Program-made: the position numbers and the translations under genes
The notes under the pieces: generated by a model
Database searches by the model: none
Told to the model about the DNA's origin: nothing
Seen by the model: only the letters and a program-made list of their open reading frames with translations
Assembly (NCBI GenBank): GCA_945903265.1
Contig: CAMDNQ010000015.1
Span: 1 to 64,000, forward strand
From: Candidatus Sulfopaludibacter sp. SbA3
Lineage (GTDB): Bacteria; Acidobacteriota; Vicinamibacteria; Vicinamibacterales; UBA2999
Length of the DNA: 64,000 nt
Reading direction: 5' to 3'
Part shown: positions 61,505 through 64,000 of the stretch, piece after piece
Layout: the number at the start of each line of letters is the position of its first letter
How positions within the stretch are numbered: the stretch's first letter is position 1

Positions 61505-61942
61505 TTACATCAACTTTCCCACCGGCCCGAGGTCCAGATTCAGGTCCTCGGCCGGTACCCCGAACTTTGCCGCAATATCCTGCACCGTTTCCTCTAACTG
61601 CATCAGCGCCCGGCCGACATTTTCCACCTGCTCGTCGTTGAGCGTGCCCTTTTCCATGCGCCGGATCGCCTGGCGCTCCAGCAGCCTGCGGATGAACTCG
61701 ACGAGTGTGAGCACGAGCTTGGCCACCGACCGCTGGACCTCATCAGGATCCGCATTCCAGCGCATCGGCGACTGCGATGACGCGGTGCGTTCGAGCTGCC
61801 GCCGAAGGTCGTCCAGCTCGGCCACTTCGCTCACGGTGAGACTCCCCGCCTTCGCGACCAGGCGTCCCTTCCGCGGTTTCGCCGGAACCTTTTTCTGCTT
61901 CGGGGGATTCGTTTTCTTTCGTGCAACCGCTTTTTTTGCCAT
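61505..61942 (-). CDS. gvpK: Gas vesicle protein GvpK
   Basis: 145 residues. A ~28-residue Lys/Ala/Pro-rich N-terminus precedes the conserved GvpK core: DEVQRSVAKLVLTLVEFIRRLLERQAIRRME and GRALMQLEETVQDIAAKFGV, ending LNLDLGPVGKLM. GvpK is needed for vesicle growth but is not a main shell protein. ATG 61942 shares one base with the upstream gvpF/L stop (TGATG). Convergent with lhr, two bases apart. Confidence 0.93.
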   Translation of the reverse strand: MAKKAVARKKTNPPKQKKVPAKPRKGRLVAKAGSLTVSEVAELDDLRRQLERTASSQSPMRWNADPDEVQRSVAKLVLTLVEFIRRLLERQAIRRMEKGTLNDEQVENVGRALMQLEETVQDIAAKFGVPAEDLNLDLGPVGKLM

Positions 61943-62628
61943 CACCAGTCCCCAAATGCGTACGCCGGCCACGGTCCTGATACGAGCACGCGTACGTCTT
62001 CGGCCGCGGCAGCCGCTTCGATCGCCGCTGCATATCGGCCCGCGGCGGCTCTGGGAACCAGGTGATACACCGTGGCAACGGTCCCGCGCCGCTCCACACG
62101 CGAGTCCCTGACCCACCTCGCGACCGCACGATCGACAGGCGCGAAGCCCGGGATGCTCGACGCGCTGTGCTCGCGCGCGCGGCTCGAAAGATACTGCGTG
62201 CCTGAACCCGTCCCCGTGGGGCGGACCTTGTCAGGTCCGCCACGCGATCCTGACCCGCCTTCGCCGAGGCTACGGCGGGCTTGCGCCACGAGAACTCTCA
62301 CGGTCATCTGCACGCGGCCGCGAACACGAGCCAGCTGCGATTTCAGGGGCTTCTGCCGCAGACGAAGAATCGTTTCGAGCTCTTCGTCGTCCTGCATCGT
62401 GGTACCGAACCGGACCGGCAGCACCGACTGATGTGTCGTCGCGAGCGCGGCGAGAAGTGTGGTGTAGGCGCGCAGTTTCGCTTCGGTCGGCGCAGGGAGG
62501 CGGGCGACATCGCCAACGACAGCGGACACCGCACCGACACGCACGACCCGAAGCCGCTCGCCCGACAGGCCGCGGCCGGCAGCGCGCGGACCCGCGTGGC
62601 TGGTCAGGGCGTAGACGGCCACTTTCAT
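61942..62628 (-). CDS. Gas vesicle protein GvpF/GvpL (copy 2) with repeat-encoded insertion
   Basis: 228 residues from ATG 62628. GvpF/L features: KVAVYALTS at the N-terminus, ATTHQSVLPVRFGT and the C-terminal VSGPWPAYAFGDW. Residues about 117-137 (A-R-R-S-L-G-E-G-G then G-P-D-K-V-R-P) are encoded by two GC-rich hairpins and do not fit the family. GvpF/L are accessory proteins that bind the shell protein during vesicle nucleation. Which of F or L this is cannot be decided from sequence alone. Confidence 0.88.
   Translation of the reverse strand: MKVAVYALTSHAGPRAAGRGLSGERLRVVRVGAVSAVVGDVARLPAPTEAKLRAYTTLLAALATTHQSVLPVRFGTTMQDDEELETILRLRQKPLKSQLARVRGRVQMTVRVLVAQARRSLGEGGSGSRGGPDKVRPTGTGSGTQYLSSRAREHSASSIPGFAPVDRAVARWVRDSRVERRGTVATVYHLVPRAAAGRYAAAIEAAAAAEDVRVLVSGPWPAYAFGDW
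62220..62279. repeat. Two GC-rich hairpins inside gvpF/L copy 2
   Basis: GGCGGACC-TTGTCA-GGTCCGCC (62220-62241) and CCCGCC...GGCGGG (62254-62279, with TTCGCCGAGGCTAC inside). Both resemble mobile palindromic repeats and are read in frame. The first shares GGCGGACC with the element at 25601-25618. Confidence 0.75.
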
Positions 62629-62638
62629 CGCCCGCGTT

Positions 62639-62893
62639 TCATCGACGACGGGCGCGGCGATCCGAGTGGCGGGCGATGATGTCGTCGTCCTCATTGGGCA
62701 TCACGCGATCGGCGGCGCACAGGAGGAGCGACAACCGCGCGTAGACCAGATCGACCTGCGCCAGCGCGAGTGTCAGGTCGCCGTTGAGGACGATGCCCTT
62801 GTTGAGGGCGTTGTCGATCACGTCGAGGAGCGACGTCTCGCCTTCGTCATCGAGAACCTGCGAGGCTGGCGTTCGGGAGGGCGTGCGCGCCAT
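62639..62893 (-). CDS. GvpA/GvpJ/GvpM-family gas vesicle protein
   Basis: 84 residues from ATG 62893. TSLLDVIDNALNKGIVLNGD and LALAQVDLVYARLSLLLCAADR give the GvpA-family amphipathic shell fold. The sequence is closer to minor proteins GvpJ/GvpS than to the major GvpA. The C-terminus is basic (RHSDRRARRR). ATG shares one base with the stop of gvpF/L copy 1. Confidence 0.87.
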   Translation of the reverse strand: MARTPSRTPASQVLDDEGETSLLDVIDNALNKGIVLNGDLTLALAQVDLVYARLSLLLCAADRVMPNEDDDIIARHSDRRARRR

Positions 62894-63696
62894 CAGATGA
62901 AGTTGTACGGCGGCCAGGGGCCGGTCAGCGCCGCGGCGACTCCCGCTCGCGTCAGCGGCCCGGTCTGGCGGCGGACGACGGCGCGGAATGCGGCGGCGCG
63001 GCCGGCGGGCACCAGAAACGCGGCATCCAGCACAACGCGGGAGCCCGGTACGGTCCGGTCGATATCGGTGCGGCGCTCGGCCGCGGTCGCCTCCGCGGCG
63101 ATCGTGCGGTAAATTCGGGTCGCGTCGAGGCGTGCCTTCTTCATGCGGTCCCGCACGGCATCGCGCACGTCGCGTTTCCGGGCGAGGTAATCGGCGCCCG
63201 ACGCCACCCGCGCGCGTCTGGCGGGCGCCGCCTGCGCCTCGGCGCCCAGCGTCAGGCGAAGCCCCCACTCCACCTGCCCCGCGATCTTCGACAGGATGCG
63301 ATCGATCCGGCGGCGATCACGGGTGACATGGGCTGCGGCACGCTCGTCGGTCATGAACAGGGTGAAGAGCTGCATCGGCAGGACGGCGTCGGCGCGCAGA
63401 AAGTGCTCGACGACGGCTTCGTGCGCCAGCGCGCGCTCGCCGATCCATTCCAGGCGCTGCATCTCCTGCTCGAGCACCTCTTCCGCGTACGCAGCCTGGG
63501 GAACCGTACTCACGACGAGCCACGTCCTGGCGGCGGGCGTTTTCGCCTTCGGCGCCGTTCGCCTCGCCGGCGCTGCATCGGGTACCTCGACGAGCCGGAC
63601 CGGCTCGCTCAGCGGCAGGCCGGGCGGAACGCCAGCGATCGACGGACGCCTGGCCGACCGGACCAGGCAATAGACATAGGTCAGCGTGGCGCTCAC
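62893..63696 (-). CDS. Gas vesicle protein GvpF/GvpL (copy 1)
   Basis: 267 residues from GTG 63696. TYVYCLVRSA at the N-terminus, VLPMQLFTLF in the centre and the C-terminal LTGPWPPYNFI are typical of GvpF/L. A coiled-coil segment (about 175-205) lies between. Overlaps gvpG by four bases (GTGA). The two copies differ widely and probably have distinct roles. Confidence 0.92.
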   Translation of the reverse strand: MSATLTYVYCLVRSARRPSIAGVPPGLPLSEPVRLVEVPDAAPARRTAPKAKTPAARTWLVVSTVPQAAYAEEVLEQEMQRLEWIGERALAHEAVVEHFLRADAVLPMQLFTLFMTDERAAAHVTRDRRRIDRILSKIAGQVEWGLRLTLGAEAQAAPARRARVASGADYLARKRDVRDAVRDRMKKARLDATRIYRTIAAEATAAERRTDIDRTVPGSRVVLDAAFLVPAGRAAAFRAVVRRQTGPLTRAGVAAALTGPWPPYNFI

Positions 63697-64000
63697 GACT
63701 TCCGGAGTTTACGACGAGTCCCTTTGCGAGGGGCAGGCGTGCCGACTTCGATGGTCTCCTCGTAGTCCGGCTCGCGCTCGATGATGGTGGTGTGCGGCGC
63801 GTCGGCCGGCTCGTAAAAGTCGCCGGTCACGCTGGCTTCAATCTGGAAGGTGCTGCCGGGGGTCGTCTCGATCGGCTGCGCGCCCATCGTCAGCGCGCCA
63901 GTTCCTTCGCGGCGCTGCCTGATGTCGCGGATCCGGGCGAGCAGGTCGGCTTCGATGTCGCTGAACTCCTCGTCGGAGATCTCCCCCATTTCGCGCTGCA
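63693..64000 (-). CDS. gvpG: Gas vesicle protein GvpG, C-terminal part (continues past right edge)
   Basis: About 102 codons visible; the frame is open at the edge, so the N-terminus lies outside. EMGEISDEEFSDIEADLLARIRD is the characteristic GvpG helix, after which comes an extended acidic/Thr-rich tail (about 65 residues) ending KGTRRKLRKS. ATG 63989 is in frame but lies within the conserved helix and is not taken as the start. First gene of the visible gvp run; the shell gene gvpA and gvpN would be expected to the right. Confidence 0.85.
   Translation of the reverse strand, partial: QREMGEISDEEFSDIEADLLARIRDIRQRREGTGALTMGAQPIETTPGSTFQIEASVTGDFYEPADAPHTTIIEREPDYEETIEVGTPAPRKGTRRKLRKS

Follow-up and report, generated by a model that had tools for sequence, protein, structure and literature searches.

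Serratia requires each of its three GvpA forms, together with F1-3, G and K, for gas vesicle formation, and loss of its gvpN leaves small bicones (PMC4982088). In Bacillus megaterium, the wall protein GvpB is needed along with F, G, L, S, K and J, with N serving elongation (PMC11223475), and in haloarchaea the accessory complex is centred on GvpL (PMC9501494). From these requirements, a cell devoid of both A and J would not be expected to form vesicles. The operon described here shares its F-G-L-S-K order with B. megaterium (gvpAPQBRNFGLSKJTU) and Streptomyces coelicolor (gvpOAFG-JLSK), the latter also being soil-living and devoid of gvpN (PMC9501494, PMC4982088); it differs from both by the absence of a wall protein, by a third F/L gene between S and K and by a histidine kinase (HK) and a response regulator (RR) within the operon. 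Serratia sp. ATCC 39006 resembles it in having three F genes, three GvpA-family genes and in-cluster regulators, yet it carries gvpN, gvpC and gvpV, and its regulator GvrA is NtrC-like (sigma-54), in contrast to the soluble HK and stand-alone receiver domain found here.

An acidobacterial gvp cluster with an ArsA-like ATPase has been known since 2010 from Acidobacteria bacterium Ellin345 (Castillo and Saier, PMC2963123). The excerpt of that paper dealing with the cluster lists F/L, J and K genes, as in the present operon type, and no gvpN; it mentions neither a kinase nor a regulator, and the Ellin345 cluster has the ArsA gene, as do most operons of the type described below, whereas the family studied here lacks it and has, in this genome, lost J and A. 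Thus gvp genes in Acidobacteria and their link to ArsA are already known, and the view of the preliminary description that gas vesicles would be unexpected in this group does not hold, the more so as PF00741 proteins occur in 37 of the 193 genomes of the class that we surveyed.

Gene content of the operon

The window, meaning the whole analysed stretch of 64,000 nucleotides, ends within an operon that continues on contig C15, whose numbering is that of the window and which ends at 77,268.

61505..61942, minus strand: gvpK, 145 aa, with a Lys-rich N-terminal extension (PF05121, 110.6 bits)
61942..62628, minus strand: gvpF/L-3, 228 aa (PF06386, 118.9 bits)
62639..62893, minus strand: gvpS-type, 84 aa (PF00741, 49.8 bits)
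62893..63696, minus strand: gvpF/L-2, 267 aa, GTG start (PF06386, 135.9 bits)
63693..64000 inside the window, start at 64106, minus strand: gvpG, 137 aa (PF05120, 60.4 bits)
64112-65167, right of the window, minus strand: gvpF/L-1 (PF06386, 247.7 bits)
65191-65592, right of the window, minus strand: single-domain RR (PF00072, 83.0 bits)
65589-67751, right of the window, minus strand: GAF-PAS-PAS HK (PF02518, 103.8 bits; PF00512, 67.2 bits)

On the minus strand, read 5' to 3', the eight genes run HK, RR, F/L-1, G, F/L-2, S, F/L-3, K. The gvp genes overlap or abut (junctions of -4 to +10 bases) and contain no internal stops, and the five in-window genes all match Pfam families above the curated cut-offs; the five accessory genes first proposed are therefore real. 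Starts were corrected to an ATG at 61942 for gvpK and to 62628 for F/L-3, while gvpG starts at 64106 (MLTSFLGW...) and is thus truncated by the window edge. The features read from the in-window proteins were largely borne out: the F/L pair is very divergent, with a BLASTP match of just 10 residues, GvpK has 10 K among its first 40 residues and the S/J-type protein ends in RRARRR. The tail of GvpG is long, as had been stated, but mixed rather than wholly acidic, with acidic stretches followed by a basic tip. The Pfam scan found no membrane domain in the HK, and the RR is a receiver domain without an output domain.

Downstream of gvpK lies a gene that presumably encodes an Lhr-type helicase; upstream of the HK and divergent from it is presumably yajQ, followed by putative YciE-like and DUF4956-like genes and a putative treY. 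The HK-yajQ gap spans about 0.2 kb, in the place where relatives have gvpJ and gvpA. It holds an 11-base inverted repeat, AAGTCACAAGG, at contig positions 67773-67803, which occurs once in the contig. No sigma-70-type promoter above chance was found in the operon region; the group may use other promoters.

Search for the missing genes in the host genome

The preliminary description had placed gvpA and gvpN just right of the window, yet neither lies in the 13 kb between the window and the contig end. The host genome (3.52 Mb, 98.86% complete) is in draft form, in 45 contigs that were probably assembled from a metagenome, and includes a single PF00741 protein, the in-window S-type one, together with three F/L proteins and one GvpK. 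It lacks gvpA throughout and has no TIGR02640 match for GvpN, an absence that the preliminary description itself had held to be incompatible with its proposal. Searching with an alignment of the relatives' gvpA and gvpJ proteins, to which the window S protein was added, returned the S-type gene alone at E values up to 10, and no remnant of gvpA or gvpJ was found in the HK-yajQ gap. The S-type protein scores 117.6 bits against the S gene model, as opposed to 37.7 for J and 22.0 for A, clusters with the relatives' S genes rather than with A or J, and does not carry the 26-residue wall sequence that is letter-identical across six aligned GvpA. The accessory set (F/L, G, K and a J/S/M-type gene) is present, and HK and RR lie directly upstream of F/L-1 and G in the same order as in relatives, while the gvpJ and gvpA expected upstream of the HK are absent.

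The ArsA-like ATPase gene is also absent between G and F/L-2, as it is in the family members G132 and G141. Its relocation elsewhere in the host genome was considered and rejected, two other loci giving weak partial matches.

All eight remaining genes are open. Compared with G132, G141 and G125, their pN/pS and outgroup identity resemble those among the relatives themselves, and neither relaxed selection nor faster evolution was seen relative to these genomes, which are distant enough (synonymous differences of about 0.35-0.65 per site) for a recent change to be invisible to such a comparison. With eight intact genes and no measurable relaxation, a recent loss of J and A is the simplest reading.

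Distribution of the operon type and its losses

An F/L-1 scan across 84,980 species genomes led to 105 confirmed places, of which 80 were kept, in Acidobacteriota, Myxococcota, Rokuibacteriota (Rokubacteria), Planctomycetota, Gemmatimonadota and Chloroflexota; by record title, the sources are mostly soil and groundwater MAGs. The order conserved among relatives is J-A-HK-RR-F/L-G-(ArsA)-F/L-S-F/L-K, without gvpN. It is rotated in Gemmatimonadota and Chloroflexota, where F/L comes first and J-A-HK follow K, and the operon kinase of Terriglobia is more distant. Across 96 F/L-1 loci, drawn from two partly overlapping collections, no GvpN was seen nearby and gvpA was found in 81. Of the remaining 15, 14 end, by contig or locus, before the place of gvpA, leaving the window's genome as the sole locus that lacks gvpA and is not cut off. 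In three rokubacterial loci (L090, L094, L099), a second kinase-like and receiver-like pair lies between F/L-1 and G, and G189 encodes S and K as a single fusion protein (L058:6036-6719), G127 looking alike.

Within the class survey, GvpK was detected in 30 and F/L in 36 of the genomes, and GvpN in only 6 (E of 1e-20 or better, the best 12 candidates per genome being scored). Two kinds of cluster exist in the class, one with gvpN and the present kind without it. At L066, L064, L065 and L055, in other genomes of the class, a different cluster was observed, with canonical GvpN and regulator-like proteins of 500 aa, and G141 has both kinds. By F/L-1, the nearest relative is a groundwater MAG of Acidobacteria from the same family, in agreement with the acidobacterial host first suggested, and the tree places F/L-1 of the window's genome with that of G132 with full support. 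As to the lateral transfer for which a phylogeny of F/L and K had been proposed, the single conserved site within the family fits vertical descent, whereas the tree is mixed between phyla, which suggests that older transfers may have occurred. Open-access full texts yielded nothing relevant on a kinase-bearing soil gvp operon or on loss of shell genes, and we found in them no description of an operon with its own two-component system, without gvpN and mostly with an ArsA-like ATPase.

At the yajQ..lhr site, members of the same family are found in different states. The operon is complete in G132, G125 and G141, each time split over two contigs, and in the window's genome only J and A are missing. 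In G139, fragments of A (27 residues) and J (14 residues) lie in different frames, followed by an internally deleted HK and by the RR, F/L to K being absent (L187:6685-8837); in G123, J is fused in frame to the ATPase end of the kinase, with the RR next to it (L068:4809-5854). G128 has the RR alone (L191:5915-6343), and nothing of the operon is left in G142, G110 and G144. A second loss is found in another genus: the cluster is complete in G189, and the corresponding position in G187 (100% complete) is occupied by no more than the RR (L049:8481-8882; 81% identical) and one F/L (48%), the flanks being mostly 85-91% identical. Loss of the operon is thus repeated and piecemeal in the class. The series shows J and A going first, in the window's genome, and the RR being kept longest, then the HK. 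A divergent gvpA fragment adjoins yajQ at a contig end in G138. The F/L-1 gene of G125 lies in two frames and lacks its middle (L042:4275-5035) in an otherwise complete cluster; either decay is setting in or the sequence is in error.

Interpretation of the shell-less operon

We favor, with a probability of roughly 0.7, the reading that what remains here are the accessory and regulatory genes of a gas vesicle system whose wall genes gvpJ and gvpA were deleted in this lineage, at an early stage of a recurrent loss. Support comes from the single PF00741 protein at 98.9% completeness, the missing GvpN, the series of losses at one site and the second case of loss in G187 as compared with G189. The single-gene requirements in Serratia, moreover, indicate that accessory genes do not work alone. 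On the other side, no sign of decay is seen beyond the missing genes, which would require a recent loss, and local misassembly in the 45-contig draft may have dropped J-A.

In the complete relatives, the HK/RR pair would respond to a signal by regulating the operon or vesicle assembly; a kinase lacking a membrane domain suggests a cytoplasmic signal, and a receiver lacking an output domain would need direct protein contact or a further regulator to take effect. F/L, G, S and K are predicted to make up an assembly complex feeding GvpA into the growing wall. In the window's organism this complex would have no wall protein to work on, and most likely no normal gas vesicle can form. These molecular roles are predicted from those of described systems. 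Most likely, then, the cluster shows the beginnings of a loss that has happened repeatedly in the class.

Perhaps the shell-less set was instead kept for another job, with F/L-G-S-K and the two-component pair serving without GvpA, perhaps as a scaffold or by using S as the sole structural subunit. The eight genes are intact and constrained as in complete relatives, and the HK-RR pair, or the RR by itself, persists after the gvp genes have gone in G139, G123, G128 and G187, which suggests a role of its own for the RR, at times with the HK, and some independent value of the signalling part. Nevertheless, no other locus among the 96 is shell-less and otherwise complete, S shows no special change after the loss and the family neighbours display plain gene decay, for which reasons we hold this explanation to be unlikely. 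That the assembly complex is under selection without a wall protein, under its own two-component control and for a purpose other than buoyancy, is quite unlikely.

An assembly artefact, in which the organism has gvpJ-gvpA and the assembly dropped them, is very unlikely in our judgment. The completeness and fragmentation of the draft leave room for it, no second genome of the genus is among the 193 surveyed, and yajQ-HK lacks more than J-A (about 0.2 kb against about 1.85 kb in G141). Yet synteny matches to either side of the join, which falls within a contig; repeat collapse is improbable, J and A being no more than about 40% identical; and comparable losses exist in other genomes. As for a working vesicle walled by the S-type protein, membership of S in the same Pfam family as GvpA is outweighed by its lack of the identical wall sequence and by the need for all three GvpA forms in Serratia and for a wall protein besides S and J in B. 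megaterium, so that it is extremely improbable.

Returning to the proposed deletion of gvpJ and gvpA, the cluster is a shell-less, GvpN-less gvp operon with a two-component system, probably in decay, and it looks like a snapshot of a system being lost. It belongs to a widespread gas vesicle operon of mostly soil and groundwater bacteria, with its own two-component system and without gvpN. The losses at one site offer a natural series of which parts go first and which stay longest, and this series makes testable both the role of the operon in soil and the job of the HK/RR pair apart from vesicles.
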